NCBI RefSeq assembly: GCF_000708205.1
Contig: NW_014575557.1
Span: forward strand, 744,143 to 808,142
Origin: Mixia osmundae IAM 14324
Lineage: Eukaryota; Basidiomycota; Mixiomycetes; Mixiales; Mixiaceae
Direction: 5' to 3'
DNA: 64,000 nt
Shown: one piece after another, positions 33,676-47,044 of the stretch
How positions within the stretch are numbered: the first letter of the stretch is position 1
Layout of the letters: the number at the start of each line of letters is the position of its first letter
Program-made: the position numbers and the translations under genes
Notes under the pieces: generated by a model
What the model saw: the letters and a program-made list of their open reading frames with translations, nothing else
What the model was told of the DNA's origin: nothing
Database searches by the model: none

Positions 33676-34710
33676 TCAGCGGAATACAGACCCGATCTTG
33701 GACTGCCATTCCGCAGCGCCCTCGAAGCCGTTCTTGCCTTGCTGGAAATCGTAGATCGTCTGTATCACATCTTCCCGACTACACATGACGAAAGGACCAT
33801 GCTGGTAGACTGTCTGATTGAGCGCTTTGCCAGCCACGACGAGCAGCCGAGCATCTGCTGACTTGCTGAGCAGTGTGATGCCGGTCTGATCTTGCGCTGA
33901 GCTCAGCACGGCTGTGTGATAAGTCTGGGTCGCAACACCGCCAATCTCTGCAGAGCCAGCAATGACATAGACAAAGGCAGTCCAGCCGACAGGCATAGAT
34001 TGAAAGTACGCCACTTGGCTCTCGCTGAAGCGCACGTCAAGATAGACAAGTCCGCCACCGCTGACTTCATGAATAGGTCCCTCAACGGCTGCGGTCGATT
34101 GGTCAGGACTCGCACCGGCTAGGACCTTGATCTCAATCCCGCCATGCTTTCCGAGAGGATAGGCTGCCGGTATCTCTTCTGCGTCAAGCTCGTGATAGGA
34201 TGGCGCATCGAGTTTGTTGGCTTTCGGCAAGTCTATCCAGAGCTGCATACCCTCCGGGTCTGGCTCACCCTCGACATGCACGGGCACTTCGGAATGCATG
34301 ATCCCTCGGCCCGCTTTCATGAATTGCACGCCACCCGTCTTGAGCTCGCCAGCGTGACCCTTTGAGTCCTCATGCCTCGACATTCCCTTGAGCATCATCG
34401 TGAGCGTACTGAACCCCCGATGGGGATGGTCGCCGAAGCCGGCCCCACGCGGTACGCGGAAGTGGTCGAGCATCAGGAAGGGTGACAAATTCTGCAAGGC
34501 TGCTGTGCCGATTGAGCGTCGCACACGAGCGCCAATGCCCTCTTCTTGCTCAATGGCCAGCACAGATTTGACCACTGTACGTGACGTTTGCTGCGTCGCC
34601 ATGCTCCTGGATGATGCCTGCCTGGCCTTCTGGAAAGGCGACCGAATTGCGATGGAGGCAAGGGAGAGTGCCAGGATGAGCAGGCTAGTCTTCAGACGCT
34701 GAGTCAGCAT
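33676..34710 (-). CDS. Pirin (cupin-superfamily iron protein) with N-terminal hydrophobic segment
   Basis: Single exon, 344 residues from the ATG at 34710. Pirins are non-haem iron bicupins; some act as quercetinases or as transcription cofactors. Iron-ligand motifs are visible: GFGDHPHRGFST, the second His in SRHEDSKG, and AGRGIMHSEVP with its Glu. WIDLPKANKLDAPSYHEL is the usual linker. Unusual is the first ~43 residues: MLTQRLKTSLLILALSLA is basic then strongly hydrophobic, followed by RSPFQKARQASSRS, which looks like a mitochondrial presequence or signal anchor. A second in-frame ATG (MATQQTSRT) just before the pirin core could give a cytosolic form. Confidence 0.93.
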   Translation of the reverse strand: MLTQRLKTSLLILALSLASIAIRSPFQKARQASSRSMATQQTSRTVVKSVLAIEQEEGIGARVRRSIGTAALQNLSPFLMLDHFRVPRGAGFGDHPHRGFSTLTMMLKGMSRHEDSKGHAGELKTGGVQFMKAGRGIMHSEVPVHVEGEPDPEGMQLWIDLPKANKLDAPSYHELDAEEIPAAYPLGKHGGIEIKVLAGASPDQSTAAVEGPIHEVSGGGLVYLDVRFSESQVAYFQSMPVGWTAFVYVIAGSAEIGGVATQTYHTAVLSSAQDQTGITLLSKSADARLLVVAGKALNQTVYQHGPFVMCSREDVIQTIYDFQQGKNGFEGAAEWQSKIGSVFR

Positions 34711-34823
34711 GCACGCTGTGTGCGTGGACACCGTGGGGATGCAGAGGGGACGTCGACGTCGACGGCTATTTGGCGACCACCGACGCGCCTCGCAGCTCGC
34801 AGCCGCCTTTAGCGATTGCTCGC

Positions 34824-36313
34824 ATGGGCGTCAGGCTCCTCTGGCAGGCCTGCGATGCGAAGAAGAAATCTCGCTCACTGCTCAAGCTGGGCGAGGAGTC
34901 CTATCGTTGTACTCAAAGGAGCATCAAGATCGGAATCGGTACGCCTCACATCCTCACCTTGCGCTTCATCTTGACGATCAAGCAGACACATCATGCTGGC
35001 TTATAGAAGCATTGCATCAGTCTGATGATGCAGACGAAGCCATGCTGAAACTCCACGCCCGTCTGTTGACGCTCCTCAAAGCGCCCTTCCAGCCACTCTT
35101 TGTCCTCGACGGTCCTCAACGTCCCAAAGTCAAGCGAGGTCATCAAGTCGCGGGATACAGCATTGCCCTGCAAGATCGCTTTCTCAAGCTGCTCGACATC
35201 TATGGCATGACTGCTCTCAAGGCCAAGGGTGAAGCAGAAGTCGCCCTGATACAGCTCGCAATCTATGAAGTGATCGACATGATCCTCACCACAGACTCGG
35301 ACGCGCTGCTGCTCGGATTGCCACTCGACGGTGATCCTCCTCTGAGCTCAGATGTGGTGATCGTGCGCGACTCCTTTGCACTTGACTTTTACCAGACAGA
35401 CAAGCCAGCGTTCAGTACCTATGTCGAGCGCGCGAAAGACTGGCTGCGGCTGCCACAAGATATCTACTCGGCGAAGCTCGTCGCAGATATCTTCAGTAAT
35501 CGTATTGCTGCCACCATCTTTGCTGCCATCACCGGCGGAGACTTTGCTCGGGGATTAGCTCACGATCTTGGCAAGCGAGATGTGCCGTTCTGTGTTGACC
35601 TTGCCAACTCAATCGCGCAAAATTACCGCTCTCAGCTGAAGGATACGCAAGAACGAAACACTCAAAGCATCTCGGGAGGAGAACTGCTCGCTCGAACGCG
35701 CACCCTCGACATGATCAGGGAGGCGATCGTCGTAGCGCTCGAGCGTCGTCATGGGATATCTGTCCGCGCATTTTCAGAGGAGGCTACCTCACCGTTGAGG
35801 CCCGACATACAGCAGCTCTATCTACTGCCTGTCTTCTCGCCAGAAGCCGATATCGAAGCAGCCAGGAAATCCCTGGAGTGGCCCTATGTGCCTCTGACGA
35901 GTAGCATCATTAGCAATATTGAGGAGCTCCTAGGTGACGCTAAGCGATATGCTGTCGTCTTTGAGCGATCAGTCAAAGACGTCGTCATTGCTGCTACCGC
36001 CCACGCCATTCTGCGTATTCGCATCGTGCGCGCCCAAGCTAGACAATCGCTGCCCCAACCCCAGCGCGAGCTCATCTTCAGAAAGAGCTTAGATCGCGAG
36101 GAGCTAGTCTACATCAGAGAGGAGGCCGCTACATCTAGCAGATCCTGCAATATCCTCCTGCGTCGACAGGCTGATCTGCCCCGCGACTCAAGGTCTATCC
36201 CGTCTCGGCGTCTCTCTGGCGCATCGCAGAAGAACAATCGGCAGTACATGTCACCCTCCATAGATTTGCAGAAGCCTAATCAAATTAGCACGTGCTTGTA
36301 CAACAACTGTTGA
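34824..36313 (+). CDS. XPG-family nuclease, GEN1/Yen1 Holliday-junction resolvase type
   Basis: Two exons (34824-34938, 34983-36313) give 481 residues. The start MGVRLLWQAC corresponds to the MGV-x-x-LW N-terminus of the family. XPG-N: IADTSCWLIEA and PLFVLDGPQRPKVKRG; XPG-I: KAKGEAEVALIQLA and DMILTTDSDALLLG, retaining the Glu and Asp residues of the two-metal site. The C-terminal basic part lacks recognisable domains; it is shorter than in human GEN1 (908 residues) or Yen1 (759). The FVLDGPxRPKxKRG block and length of the spacer favour GEN1/Yen1 over FEN1 or EXO1. It is divergent from pirin, 113 bp between ATGs. Confidence 0.85.
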
Positions 36314-41098: not shown

Positions 41099-41674
41099 TT
41101 ATGCGTGCTTGGCCTTGACAGCGACGACGGGCGTGCCCTTGCCTTGGCTGAGCCCTGTCAGGCCCGAGCCGCGTCAGCTATGTATCAGTCGCTGACAGAA
41201 GAACAGGCTTGCACTTCTCCTGCACCATCTTGTACATCTCGCTCGTGTGAGGGTTGTAGACTCTACCGCCCTTCTTGGCGATAGGTTTGCCGGCGCGCTT
41301 GTCGAAGCCCAAGTCTGCCTTGACCTTGTCACCGACTGGCGACAGACAGCATAGATCAGAACGTCTGCGTGCGCTCCCTGGTGGAGCACCTACCTGACTT
41401 TATAGCCTCCTTGATGTCAAATCCACGCTCGACGTGCGAGCCATCGGCGGTTTCGACTGTTTGGCAAAGACGTCTCAGTCGTGCCAGTCAGCTCACCAAT
41501 GAGGCGCTTACATTTGGCATTGACCGCACGCTCTGCAATCTTGTACGCCTCCTCTGCTTGCTTGAACCTCTCAGCAACGACACGCCGTTGCTGAGGTAGA
41601 ATGGACGAGCCATTGGCAAAGGCAACGATTGCCATCGAGGCCACGCAGAGCAAGACGAAGAATTTAGCAAACAT
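41099..41674 (-). CDS. Small secreted lysine-rich protein, unknown family
   Basis: About four exons encode ~135 residues. Signal peptide MFAKFFVLLCVASMAIVAFA, then an amphipathic helix (RFKQAEEAYKIAERAVNAK) and basic blocks DGSHVERGFDIKEAIKS, GDKVKADLGFDKRAGKP, GGRVYNPHTSEMYKMV. Introns are gtaagc...aacag, gtaggt...gccag and a probable GC-AG intron (41155-41212) before the last exon, which ends VVAVKAKHA; without that splice the protein would stop after ~10 further residues. Almost no cysteines, so not a typical effector-like knot. No family recognised. Retention signals at the C-terminus (HDEL type) are absent. Confidence 0.65.
41155..41212 (-). other. Possible GC-AG intron in the small secreted protein gene
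   Basis: Donor AAGT|gcaagc, acceptor cctgacag, with a gctgac branch-like site upstream. Not anchored by homology. Confidence 0.5.
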
Positions 41675-41800
41675 GTTGTCGTATGTTACGATAGACTGCA
41701 AAGTCTGAGTCTTCGATGTCTCAACAAGTCGCTAGAGGAAGAATGAGGGTTGATGCATCATGGCAACAAAGGGGTTTCTGCCCCTCTCATGTTACAGGAG

Positions 41801-43203
41801 TCAAAGCTCGCTAAGCGACGCCGGCAGTTCCAGGATCCGACAGCGATGGGTCGACTCCAAGTTGCGCAACATGTCCACATCACCGGCCGAGCATGCGATC
41901 GAGATGACAGCCTTCAGAGCGGTATGGCTCGCAAGGCTCAGCACGCTACAAATGACGCGTCAGTCTGAAGGTTGCGCCTCCAATCGCATACGCACCGAGC
42001 TGAGTAGTCCTCGACGGCGCGTGGAAGATCGAAGTTGAGGATGAACTTGACGGTCACATCGGTCATCGTTTTGGCCAGGGCATCATACACCACGAGGCAG
42101 CGCTTTGCACCGAATCCTGATCGATAGCGCGACAAGACAGCCTGCCGGGCCGTCGAGCCCATATCGCCGCGCTACACGCTCGTCAGAGCAGTACATGTGC
42201 TGAGACGAAGACGAACCAGAGCGAGCGCATCGATTCCGACAGATTGCAGCTTGTACGAGATCGAGTCAACGGCGTCAATGCTTGAGCAATAGATGAGCGC
42301 TTCATCAAAGTCCGGATCGTCACACAGATCAAGCAGGGCGTCCAATTTGATGGCTCTCAACTCGTTGGCTTCCGTTCGTGCTGGATTCGGTGCGATGTAC
42401 AGAAAGTACTGCTTGGTCGTTCGGACATTGGGCGTGCTCTGAGCTCCATCGCGGCGAACCAGGACTCGGACAGGTTCGCGGAGGCGAAGGCAAGAAGCAA
42501 AGCTGAGCACATCTTGCGGCACAGTGCAGGACAAGACAGCTGTCTGACGCTCTCCAGAAGTCATTTCGCTTCCATTTGCGGGAAGCCATCGCGCGAAAGC
42601 GAGAACGGATTCGGCCATTCCTCGAGCGATGATCTGGTCGGTCTCATCGACGACAAACATGCGCACATTGGCGAGTGAGACGGTCTTGAGTCCGAAGATC
42701 TCTGTAAGACGGGCAGGCGTGCCGATCACAATGTGAGGCGTGAGAAGCTGCAGTCCCTGGTGCTCATCAGGCTGCCCCACGAGCGCAGCTGTCTCGACAC
42801 CAAGAGATCCACCGAGGATAGAGGCGAGGCGAGCAGCTTGCGTAGCTTGATCAACAGTCGCAGTGACGACCACAACAAGTACGCCTGCGCGTCGATTCGT
42901 CATCGTCTGCTGAGGCCAGACTGATCCGTGAGCCTCGCTGATGATGTTGGCGACGATCTGAATAGCAGGAACGATGTAGATTTGGATGCGTTCCTGCATG
43001 GGTGGCGACTGGGCGACGATGTCTTGACTTTCGAGTAAGCAAGGAATTGCGCGCGCGAGCACTTTTGAAGGCGGACGAAGACCATACTTGGTGATCGAAC
43101 GCAGCAGGTCGAGCGAGATGCCCAACTGCTCCCATTTGCCAGTCTGTGCAGATCCGTTGTTGGCGGAAGGAGCGTCTTGGTTGCGTGGTATGGGAAAGCT
43201 CAT
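41801..43203 (-). CDS. Degenerate eIF4A-like DEAD-box protein lacking the ATPase motifs
   Basis: Three exons (43203-42215, 42169-41996, 41945-41801) give 435 residues, aligning with eIF4A/FAL1 from Q-motif to C-terminus with almost no gaps. Motif I AQSGTGKT reads AQSPPMQE (no Walker lysine); the Q-motif Gln is replaced (PSKVLARAI); Ia PTRELA reads ATVDQAT; Ib TPGR reads TPAR; II DEAD reads DETD; III SAT reads SCT; V and VI (HRIGRxGR) are gone (SARVLSLASHTALK). In contrast, RSGFGAKR, NFDLPRAVEDY and the final LESTHRCRILELPASLSEL keep eIF4A spacing. The frame is open and introns are normal, so it is an expressed-looking gene, not a decayed copy. It cannot be a working ATP-dependent helicase as read; a scaffold or dominant regulator of translation or the exon-junction complex is inference. 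Confidence 0.85.
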
Positions 43204-43233
43204 CTGCGAGCGCGATCAGAGGGATCCTCAAAT

Positions 43234-44337
43234 TCATAGATATTGCGAGCTCACTTCCGGTACTTGTCCGCCGAGCGTCAAGGCAGCGAATGCTGCATCA
43301 CCAGCCTGCTCGGCGCCGATGTCGAAGCCGACTGAGCTGGGCGTAGTACTCGAGGCAAACATGCTCGGCAGGGCACTCGTCACGCTAGGGACTGGCATCT
43401 CGAGATGCTCAGGTCCGGGGGCAAAGGCAGTAGCAGGATCGTTCAGTCCAGATGCGAGCAGCACATTGGTTGCAAGATCCTGGGCTTCAGCACGCGTAGT
43501 GTCACGCACAGGCGTCTGAGCAGATAGGCAGCCGGAGAGAAAAGAAATGTCTCCCTCGAGCTTGGCGATCGTCTTCTGGCATTGTTCGAGACCGTAGCTT
43601 TGCATGATTGCGTCCTCTTCAAGCTGTCTGACGCGCTGCAGCAAAAGTGAGACTGTCTCTGCCAGATGTGGCCCGGGCTGATGTCTGTTTTGTGGATGGG
43701 ATGACAGTGTGGGTGACTGAGTGCTGCAGAAGCTGGTCGCGGAGGAGGTATAGCTCATGCTGCTTGCAGACAAGGCGCTCATGGAAGACACTGGCGAGAG
43801 CGATGCGCTTGTTGCGGGTGAAATTTGACCTGGCTTGCGGATCGCGACGGCTTTGCTTGGTCGGCTTGTGGGCAGTGTAGGACTGACGAGCGGCTCTTTG
43901 GTCGCCCAGCGACTAGCTGCAGTCCCGGGCTGATCGGCCAGTGAGCGTGTAGGGCGCTGATTTGTCTGCGTGACCGGATAGTCTGCAATCGTGCTGGGAT
44001 TTGAGGATACGACTGCATCCTTTGCGCTTGTGGCGAGAGCGGTGGTCGTGTCTGTGCTCGAGCTCGAGGGAGTGCTGCTAGCTTCGACACTCTTCTCGCT
44101 CGACTTGTCATCTAGGCTTATACTCGAAGCCACAGGCATACATGGCGAGGCAGAGCGTGAGCTGCTTGGCTCGAGAGGCTGGCTCTGCTCCTCGGCCGAT
44201 TGAAACGAACCACCTGAGAATGTGCCGATGGAGCTCATCGTGGGCAGCACACTGAGGAGGGCACCGTGCGCTGCGTCGGAACTGGCTGACTGTCGATCTT
44301 TGGGGACGTCGTCTAGGACACGCAAAGGGGGAAACAT
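43234..44337 (-). CDS. Ser/Thr-rich protein with short coiled coil, unknown function
   Basis: Single exon, 367 residues. Mostly low-complexity Ser/Thr/Ala/Pro sequence (SSSTDTTTALATSAKD, SMSALSASSMSYTSSATS), with one ordered-looking part near residue 230-270: LAETVSLLLQRVRQLEEDAI ... LEQCQKTIAKLEGDISFL, a predicted coiled coil. No signal peptide or membrane helix. Its stop lies ~30 bp before the start of the eIF4A-like gene on the same strand, so the latter's promoter must overlap this gene. Not recognised. Confidence 0.72.
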   Translation of the reverse strand: MFPPLRVLDDVPKDRQSASSDAAHGALLSVLPTMSSIGTFSGGSFQSAEEQSQPLEPSSSRSASPCMPVASSISLDDKSSEKSVEASSTPSSSSTDTTTALATSAKDAVVSSNPSTIADYPVTQTNQRPTRSLADQPGTAASRWATKEPLVSPTLPTSRPSKAVAIRKPGQISPATSASLSPVSSMSALSASSMSYTSSATSFCSTQSPTLSSHPQNRHQPGPHLAETVSLLLQRVRQLEEDAIMQSYGLEQCQKTIAKLEGDISFLSGCLSAQTPVRDTTRAEAQDLATNVLLASGLNDPATAFAPGPEHLEMPVPSVTSALPSMFASSTTPSSVGFDIGAEQAGDAAFAALTLGGQVPEVSSQYL

Positions 44338-44482: not shown

Positions 44483-47044
44483 ATGTCCGAGCCAGCGACA
44501 ACGTCGGGCCAGGCCGAACCTGCCCCTTTGCTTGACGAGCCGCGTCCAATCAGGCAGCTCTCAGAATCTGTCGTCAATCGCATAGCAGCGGGAGAGGTAA
44601 CACCTTGTCCGTCCCAGTGCCGCTTCTGCTCAGTTGGGGCAGGTGGTACAACGCCCCGCCAATGCAGTGAAGGAGCTTCTCGAGAACGCACTCGACGCAG
44701 GCGCGACGACTGTCCGAGTTGAAGTCAAGGATGGCGGTCTCAAGCGCATCGTTATCGTCGATGACGGTCTGGGCATACGCGTGCGTCCATCATGCGCACG
44801 CTGTTCATGCCTTACATCTGCGAAATGATGAGCAGCATGAGGACCTGCCGCTGCTGTGTCAGCGATTCGCGACATCAAAGATCTCAACGTTTGATGATCT
44901 GTCTAGTCTGAGCTCGTACGGCTTTAGAGGCGAGGCTCTGGCTTCCATATCCCACGTCGCGCATCTCACCGTCGTCACGAAGACGCGCCACGATCTCGCT
45001 GGTTGGAAGTCAGTGGCTCGATATAATTACCAAAGTTTGCTCAGTGTTGCAGCAGAGCCAAGTATGCTGACGGGATCCTCGTGCCACATTCAAGCTCGGA
45101 CACGTCGTCAGAGCCAAAGCGAGCTGCAGCAGTCAACGGAACCCAATTCATCGTTAGTCGGCTGAGCGAGCATGGCATAGACGCTGACAAAGGGACAGAT
45201 TGAGGATCTTTTCTACAACATACCCACCCGTCTGAGAGCGCTTAAATCAGCCAGTGACGAGTACGCTCGTATTCTAGACGTCTTGGGTAAATATGCGATT
45301 CAAAATGCATCAGTCTCGATCAGCTGTCGCAAGGTCGGCGCACGAGAATGGGATCTCAATACCGGCCTGCCCGCGTCTGTGTCGATTCTGTCAGATGCAA
45401 CGTCATCGCAGACTCAACAAGACCTCTCCCAACAATCAGACGTGATTGGCGGCATATACGGTCAAGCGATCAAGAAAGAACTCGTCGAGGTTTCGCTCCA
45501 AGAAGACACGTTGGCTCTATCCGCGCACGGATGGTTTTCAGGACTCAACTTTAGCGCAAAGAAGGCAGTTTACGTCATCTTCGTCAATAGTGAGTTGCGC
45601 TCCAACAACCATTGGTTCGTCCTGACCTTGCGAGGTCCCCAGATCGCTTGGTTGAGTCGAGGAGCATTCGCAAGTCGCTCGAAATCTTCTACGCGCCTCT
45701 ACTGCCGAAAGGCGGCTTTCCCTTTGTCTACATATCCCTCATGCTCGATCCAGCGACGATCGACGTCAATGTTCATCCTACGAAATCCGAGGTCGGCTTC
45801 ATGAACGAAGATGACATATCAGATGCGCTATGTACAGCGCTCGAAGCGAAGCTCGAAGAATCCAGGCAATCACGTGGCTTCAAGGTCATCTCTGCGCCTC
45901 GAAATAGCGCGAATACAGACCCGACGCAGCAAGATGCTCGTCTGCTCTCGCGAAACGTCCCACAGCACCAGATTCGCACCGATCATCAAGCACGAACGCT
46001 CACTAGTATGCTCGTCACGGATGGACAGGCGCTCGAAAGATCGCAGCTGCCGACTCAAGCACCCATTGAAGCCAGAAAGGGCAAAATCACCGAGTCGGCT
46101 TGCAATTTGACGTCTATCCAAGAGCTGCGCGCGGAAGTTGGCGACTCTAAACACGCAGGCAAGATTAATGTCAAAAATATAGGCGAGGAGCTCATGCAGT
46201 GAGCAGGCGCCAGTGCGATCTTTGCCGATCATACCTTCGTGGGCGTGGTCGACTCGGATCGCGGACTCTCGCTCATTCAGCACGCCACTAAACTCTACAT
46301 CGCGCGACATGATGAATGCTTGTGCGTCCGAACACTGATTGGCCACACGTAGGCTGACATACGTACACAGGGAGGAGCTCTTCTATCAGTTGGGCTTGCG
46401 TCAATTTGGCCAAATGGGGCGCATGCTGCTCGATCCGCCACCCAAGCTATCTGAACTCATACAGATCGCTGTCGATCACGAGCCGCAAGTAACAAACGCC
46501 CATCTGTCACCAGACGAGATTAAGGAAGTGCGCTCACATCAGTATCATATCTATTGATGCTAAACAGGCTATAGCGCGCCACTCGTCGCTGGCTGGAGCG
46601 CAGAGACATGGTCGCTGAGTATTTCGCGATCGACCTGGACGAGCTCGATCGAGTCGTCTCCGTGCCCTTGATTCTCCCTGGCTATACGCCACCGCTCGAG
46701 AATTTGCCGCGATGTCTGTCCCGCCATGCTCAAACTTGAAATTACTGAAACGCTCAGCAGTCTTCCTGCATGGTGCAGTGCAGATCGAGTGGACGTCGGA
46801 GCGAGGCTGCTTCGCAAGTATGCTACGCTCGATCGCTCGGATGTCACTTCCTCTGCCGCCAGAGCTCGAGACGATGCCGACGGGCGTCTCATTACCGCCC
46901 GAGACCGCGTACAGATGGCAGATCGAACACGTCCTCTTCCCAGCACTCAAGGCATATCTCGTTGCGCCAGTGTCGCTGCGGGATCAGGGCATAATTCACG
47001 TCGCATCGCTTTCCAATCTCTACAAAGTCTTTGAGCGTTGTTGA
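44483..47044 (+). CDS. MLH1: DNA mismatch repair protein MLH1
   Basis: MutL homologue, partner of PMS1/PMS2 in mismatch repair and meiotic crossover. About ten exons. GHKL ATPase motifs: [79 protein letters not shown]. Transducer: FVNNRLVES and [14 protein letters not shown]. Linker, then the C-terminal dimerisation domain [41 protein letters not shown]-like [17 protein letters not shown], and the invariant MLH1 ending VFERC. One GC-AG intron lies in the linker, and two acceptors are fixed by in-frame stops just before them. It converges on RAX1 with 27 bp between stops. Confidence 0.95.
46159..46206 (+). other. GC-AG intron in MLH1
   Basis: Donor GCAG|gcaaga, acceptor tgagcag. Joining gives [18 protein letters not shown]; retention meets a TGA a few codons before the acceptor. 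Confidence 0.87.

Follow-up and report, generated by a model that had tools for sequence, protein, structure and literature searches.

Few pseudohelicases have been described so far, and a full-text search for the term turned up three papers. Utp25/DEF, a DEAD-box-like pseudohelicase of the small-subunit (SSU) processome, is called only the second to be proposed in the literature in the available part of PMC9539457, where the pseudohelicase PriA of Deinococcus (PMC4504706) is also described. Here we report on a minus-strand gene in a 64,000-nucleotide stretch of the genome of Mixia osmundae IAM 14324 (contig NW_014575557.1, positions 744,143 to 808,142; hereafter the window, numbered from its first letter). 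A first-pass annotation of the window had recognised at 43203-41801 a 435-residue eIF4A-like product with all helicase motifs eroded and the fold kept. We find that this product is part of a longer protein and that, as judged by its sequence, it is a pseudohelicase conserved under selection in relatives from three subphyla of Basidiomycota. A literature search for this pseudohelicase family and for its possible partners found no paper on the family, most subscription journals being outside its coverage.

An eIF4A-like fold with replaced helicase motifs

The best match of the 435 residues is human eIF4A1, aligned end to end as the first-pass annotation had proposed (residues 21-435 against chain residues 19-393; 123 bits, E 1.4e-34), with eIF4A3 next. 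Pfam detects DEAD (E 7.6e-14) and Helicase_C (E 4.9e-8), both above cut-offs, which gives tandem RecA-like domains. The predicted model of a relative, P0047, agrees with this arrangement, as do its matches in the PDB, the best of which are eIF4A and eIF4A3. An insert between motifs II and III is disordered in the models of P0047 and P0061 and short in Mixia. A normal eIF4A and a normal FAL1 exist elsewhere in the Mixia genome, both with canonical helicase motifs. Scored from exon pieces joined by hand, the former (L004) reaches 589 bits with human eIF4A1 and 557 with eIF4A3, the latter (L005) 671 bits with eIF4A3 and 564 with eIF4A1.

In the gene studied here the motifs are replaced. Motif I reads QSPPMQERI (42985..43011, minus strand, as for all motifs given here), and the annotation was right to find no Walker lysine in AQSPPMQE; an Arg, not a gap, occupies that position in the alignment. 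Where canonical helicases have GTGKT, most of the family has TQERI and Mixia MQERI, with Arg for the Walker Lys, Ile for Thr and Glu for Gly in the P-loop. Motif Ia is TATVDQATQ (42838..42864) in place of PTRELAxQ, motif II is DETDQ (42634..42648) in place of DEADE, and motif III is SCTVPQ (42514..42531) in place of SATMP. The motif VI region, SARVLSLAS (41927..42003), spans intron 3 and is without arginine fingers. The DETD, the SCT and the absence of HRIGRxGR had likewise been read correctly for Mixia.

Three protein searches gave 271 distinct proteins among the matches listed (120 of 275, 120 of 179 and all 64, this last search having a length window of about 968-3080 residues and 7,993 candidates scored). 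They comprise 151 longer proteins, namely the public Mixia model P0001 and 150 relatives, and 120 shorter ones, and the counts that follow refer to these listed matches. Organism names accompany 132 of the 151; all 132 are of basidiomycete genera, with Pucciniomycotina, Ustilaginomycotina and Agaricomycotina represented (lineage was looked up for four species, the other genera being assigned on reading), and no member outside Basidiomycota was seen among the listed matches with an organism name. The gene has orthologues in all three subphyla, and the lack of conservation that the annotation had envisaged for a decaying duplicate is not what we find.

Motif I follows Q(A/S)PxxQER in all 151 longer proteins (QAPPTQER in 121, QAPAIQER in 24, QAPSIQER in 5 and QSPPMQER in 1). 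Motif II is DExDQ in every one (x being V in 119, C in 27, T in 4 and A in 1), its D-E and second D always kept, and motif III is S(N/C)T(V/I)P throughout. Neither Walker A GxGK(S/T) nor PTREL(A/C) occurs in any of the 151 longer or 120 shorter proteins. The same holds for the HRxGRxGR of motif VI, most of the 120 being fragments that stop before it; P0001 also stops short, but the spliced Mixia frame covers the region. No canonical motif pattern of any kind was found in the shorter proteins (0/120), which carry QAPxxQER in 112 cases and QAAxIQER in two (P0161 and P0208), lack the stretch in five and mismatch in P0267. SAT followed by M or L is present in 7 of the 151, at places other than motif III, and DEAD at motif II in one, P0151. 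Of all members this protein of 1030 residues diverges most (branch 1.43); its motif I is QAPPTQER and its motif II DEADQ, and it could be a fast-evolving or an early lineage.

Since one set of substitutes is fixed throughout the family, in 151 of 151 listed proteins, "eroded" is wrong for the Mixia motifs, which belong to a conserved alternative set. The reported loss of the Q-motif Gln is real in Mixia, where the residue is Leu, but does not extend to the family: Gln is kept in 149 of 151, the other Leu being in P0027. Overall, the alignments show a fold that has been kept but has lost both its ATP-binding P-loop and its arginine fingers.

Conservation and phylogeny

Conservation was counted over 80 thinned rows (thinning took the alignment from 142 rows to 79; P0131, P0140, P0149 and P0150 were omitted by choice, and P0104, P0126, P0127 and P0151 were without the start pattern). 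In RecA1, 70 of 209 columns hold one residue in at least 95% of rows and 40 of these 70 differ from eIF4A1; in RecA2 the figures are 22 of 166, with 4 different. Restoring six omitted rows, including the divergent P0151 and P0126 of Phaffia, gives 86 rows with 66 such columns in RecA1 (37 different) and 17 in RecA2 (2 different). The fixed changed residues are concentrated in motifs I, Ia, II and III and in the stretch after II, and the old RecA1 nucleotide face is therefore the most constrained part of the protein. That 40 of the 70 near-invariant RecA1 columns are unlike eIF4A1 argues that selection maintains a rebuilt site. These columns thus show a vestigial nucleotide face that has been rebuilt with near-invariant residues. 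Among 54 aligned proteins 58 columns are invariant; the K-W start and the GTP of motif Ib are invariant in this alignment, and RecA1 ends in near-invariant basic residues (VLVRR). Near-invariant columns in three subphyla bear out the annotation's suggestion of a probable pseudohelicase with selection acting on its fold.

In a tree of 16 relatives and Mixia the family is monophyletic, with a stem of 1.53 changes per column and support of 100/100. The groups within it (Pucciniomycotina, Ustilaginomycotina-type and Agaricomycotina) track the species; the first is weakly supported (87/53), and the second consists of five rows, two of them with an organism name. The Mixia branch has a length of 0.64. 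The family attaches next to eIF4A/FAL1, the exact point being uncertain because of the midpoint root and the long stem.

Gene model

The predicted Mixia frame has 796 residues in four exons on the minus strand, with introns of 51, 45 and 50 bases and the stop codon at 41803-41801. The 435 residues described earlier come from exons 2 to 4 only. Their open frame and regular introns stand, but the protein begins further upstream than the Met at 43203, with 361 additional residues. Exon 1 (43255..44337) encodes these 361 residues, including a coiled-coil-like stretch and a PAM2-like motif, and joins in phase through intron 1 (43204..43254; GTGAGC...CGCAG, phase 0). A gene fragment beginning at Met 43203 is thereby ruled out. 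Exon 2 (42217..43203) carries the RecA1 domain and the beginning of RecA2, and is followed by intron 2 (42172..42216; GTTCGT...GTGTAG, 45 bases). Exon 3 (41996..42171) covers the motif IVa and motif V region of RecA2, and after intron 3 (41946..41995; GTGCGT...TTGTAG, 50 bases) exon 4 (41801..41945) adds the RecA2 C-terminus and the stop codon.

The public protein P0001 (L969DRAFT_89027, from Mixia osmundae IAM 14324) has the same start Met and covers 76% of the domain, with a match of 100%. It ends early, at 704 residues, because intron 2 is left unspliced and read through to a stop, so that the RecA2 C-terminus is missing. Splicing introns 2 and 3 gives back the C-terminal part of RecA2 that is common to relatives. 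With the close relative P0002 as query, one copy was found in the Mixia genome, a count by genome search that is a lower bound. The two halves of this gene scored 173 and 167 bits, followed by eIF4A at 76 and FAL1 at 63.

The N-terminal tail and a PAM2-like motif

The 361-residue N-terminal part, missed by the first-pass annotation, is the better functional lead. Its coiled-coil-like stretch at residues 226-271 (43525..43662, minus strand) lies in the region of a conserved family helix; a helix is predicted in the relative P0061, the tail of which is mostly disordered in the predicted model. At residues 298-307 (43417..43446, minus strand) stands LNDPATAFAP, a PAM2-like motif by comparison with the PAM2 consensus, the core of which is given as xxLNxxAxEFxP in the available text of PMC4466420.

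The relaxed pattern LN..[AS]..F.P was scored in the non-Tremellomycete Agaricomycotina, here called mushroom-type (107 rows within P0031-P0151, Ustilaginomycotina- and Tremellomycete-assigned rows being subtracted), 89 of which have more than 250 residues before the domain. It is found in 72 of these 89 tails, against 0.10 expected from shuffles, and 62 of the 72 matches fall in the first 12 residues, members opening with sequences such as MARSAALNPASMPFFPGG. Of the 17 tails without a match, several belong to models with a later start Met or deviate from the pattern at a single position. In the window, LNDPATAFAP is the only match to the pattern in open reading frames of at least 100 residues (34,649 residues). 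A wider pattern is matched by MLPTAASF(V/I)P, which starts two Microbotryum proteins, and in Pucciniomycotina overall by 5 of 28 tails against 1.26 expected, a weak excess. The Ustilaginomycotina-type proteins P0135, P0138, P0139, P0144 and P0145 have in common MSVSP(F/L)L..NSIW near the start, a stretch that loosely resembles how the mushroom motif ends (PFFPGG) and may be a diverged form of that motif. MLLE, the domain to which PAM2 binds with affinities reported as 0.2-40 uM (PMC9249222), was found at one place in the Mixia genome. A PAM2-like motif in a long tail with predicted coiled-coil-type helices is thus shown for the mushroom-type members and only hinted at for Mixia.

Possible function and alternatives

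We lean, with modest confidence, towards the view that the Mixia protein belongs to a DEAD-box pseudohelicase family of basidiomycete-wide occurrence, which would serve as a scaffold or regulator on poly(A) messenger ribonucleoprotein particles (mRNPs) without need of ATP. The family would have diverged from the eIF4A/FAL1 line earlier than the basidiomycete subphyla did from one another, and likely has no ATP cycle. In mushrooms, and possibly also in Mixia, the PAM2-like motif may tether it to poly(A)-binding protein, and on poly(A) mRNPs it would influence translation or deadenylation without unwinding RNA. Of the annotation's overall interpretation, the pseudohelicase with a fold under selection is retained, but the erosion and the guess at MIF4G partners are not.

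Several observations weigh against the scaffold account. All 151 listed proteins keep D-E in motif II as well as S and T in motif III, and nearly all keep the Q-motif Gln, so that some nucleotide or ligand binding may persist. Among the 28 Pucciniomycotina tails scored (those of Mixia and of 27 of its 29 relatives), only the Mixia tail has a strict match to LN..[AS]..F.P and the other 27 have none; strict matches are likewise lacking in all 9 Ustilaginomycotina-assigned tails (three with an organism name) and in all 5 Tremellomycete-assigned ones (four with an organism name). Since the pattern is nearly confined to mushroom-type tails, a tether to poly(A)-binding protein is not established family-wide. 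The Mixia motif lies at a different position in the tail from that of the mushrooms and could be due to chance (32 of 26,400 shuffled tails match), the mushroom motif has Ser for the Ala and Pro for the Glu of PAM2, and the tail model comes from a relative, not from Mixia.

A more specific version of the scaffold account is tentative. Here the dead ATP site would have been rebuilt as an invariant docking site, with a helix closing the P-loop and the Arg at the Walker lysine position pairing with the motif II acids. With PAM2 tying it to poly(A)-binding protein, such a phylum-wide pseudo-eIF4A could provide a level of poly(A)-mRNA control that is specific to basidiomycetes and is exerted by a helicase fold locked in a single state; it would be the eIF4A counterpart of PAIP1.

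It is unlikely that the protein instead mimics eIF4A or FAL1, needing no ATP to bind MIF4G proteins (eIF4G, CWC22) and competing with the paralogues that are still active. Its nearest relatives are indeed eIF4A and eIF4A3, and MIF4G gives six matches by exon in the Mixia genome. As a guide to the partner faces we used the positions of mutations that free DDX6 from NOT1 (Mut1) or from FDF-surface partners (Mut2), as given in the available part of PMC11239181; 11 of the 12 residues named there fit our DDX6 numbering and Q209 does not. By this analogy, over 80 rows, only 1 of 5 CNOT1-facing positions keeps its character: the equivalent of 375 stays basic (K in 50, R in 30), but 94, 101, 322 and 324 are replaced or variable, 101 being without an aromatic, 322 mostly E/D and 324 variable. 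RecA2 is moreover the less conserved half, and much of the MIF4G face lies on it. The analogy from DDX6 and CNOT1 thus gives no help to the earlier suggestion of a MIF4G partner, and the pattern on this face speaks mildly against one. The FDF-surface positions are conserved (316 D in 79 of 80, 320 D in 71, 341 Y in 70, 342 K in 78), with the residues at 320 and 341 absent from eIF4A1 and 335 variable (A in 47). This mildly suggests a short peptide on an FDF-type face, perhaps of another protein or of the protein's own tail.

Less probable is a ligand sensor, in which the adenine pocket (the aromatic W and the Q-motif Gln) and the motif II acids would bind a nucleotide or adenosine-like ligand through the changed P-loop without hydrolysis. 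The invariant K-W start and the retained residues of the Q motif and of motifs II and III are consistent with such a pocket. The three P-loop substitutions and the lost arginine fingers argue otherwise, and the Gln itself is absent in Mixia and P0027.

We regard an ATP-independent RNA clamp or RNA-binding scaffold as more doubtful again. The motifs PTRE, TPGR, QxxR and TTD contact RNA in DEAD-box helicases. Most of these contacts are altered in the family, PTRE to TVDQ and TPGR in most members to TPQK, with QxxR and TTD lost; in favour of RNA binding are the invariant GTP of motif Ib and the near-invariant basic residues of VLVRR.

A decaying duplicate of eIF4A or FAL1 in Mixia is scarcely credible, for despite the Leu in the Q motif (shared with P0027), the divergent motif VI region and the branch of 0.64, the frame is open, the introns are regular, the altered motifs are common to 150 of 150 longer relatives listed and the family is monophyletic over three subphyla with its 58 invariant columns, the conserved orthologues refuting recent decay of the Mixia copy.

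The ATP-independent scaffold or regulator thus remains our preferred reading, and the protein has the look of a functioning cell component that has given up ATP, not of a dying copy. A DEAD-box family that lost its ATP-site residues before the subphyla split and then fixed alternative motifs would represent a helicase fold kept for a use other than unwinding.

Database models and neighbouring genes

Database entries name several genes of the family RNA helicase, eIF4A, FAL1 or translation initiation factor, and such labels mislead the annotation of fungal genomes. In eight database models an RRM stretch precedes the member: P0031, P0121 and P0122 of Tulasnella, and P0040, P0079, P0124, P0133 and P0150 of Agaricomycetes. 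The fused part of P0031 is PABPN1-like (118 bits), and that of P0079 is another single-RRM stretch with weak PDB matches only. We set aside the RRM as part of the family architecture and provisionally read these models as fused neighbouring genes; they suggest a conserved gene order with fused models.

The divergent upstream neighbour (about 44483-47044, plus strand) is a mismatch-repair gene (Pfam DNA_mis_repair, E 8e-19, 45594-46199), MLH1-like by eye, and the start codons of the two genes are by eye about 145 bases apart. Just downstream lies a small, spliced-looking gene (about 41417-41731, minus strand) whose frame holds MFAKFFVLLCVASMAIVAFANG and has no Pfam match; it perhaps encodes a small secreted protein. 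A frame at 34703-36313 (plus strand) with a match to XPG_I below the cut-off (20.6 against 24.9 bits, E 0.0006) is possibly a diverged XPG-type nuclease.

Comparison with known systems

As far as the available text on Utp25/DEF goes, that protein resembles the Mixia family in its helicase fold, dead motifs and disordered N-terminal tail. The Mixia family differs from it in matching eIF4A end to end, in keeping near-invariant substitute motifs and in that its named members among the listed matches are all from Basidiomycota. The Mixia protein is not Utp25 itself: a separate Utp25 is present elsewhere in the genome, and the Utp25 C-terminal domain (PF06862) was not found in the Mixia protein, for which Pfam at E up to 1 gives only DEAD and Helicase_C. 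PriA of Deinococcus, from what is accessible of its description, is likewise a helicase that has lost catalysis and kept a binding role, but it is bacterial and a DNA helicase of another family.

With eIF4A and eIF4A3 (FAL1) the family has in common the same two-RecA fold along the whole length, but it is without the P-loop, motif Ia, motif V and motif VI residues. To this fold the Mixia protein adds its 361-residue tail, and the family an insert between motifs II and III and a conserved motif set of its own.

PAIP1 joins PAM2 to an eIF4G-like domain. Provided that the PAM2-like motif is genuine, the likeness to PAIP1 and other PAM2 proteins would lie in a tie to poly(A)-binding protein. The Mixia protein lies outside that family, and the domain linked to its PAM2 would be an eIF4A-like one that is dead.
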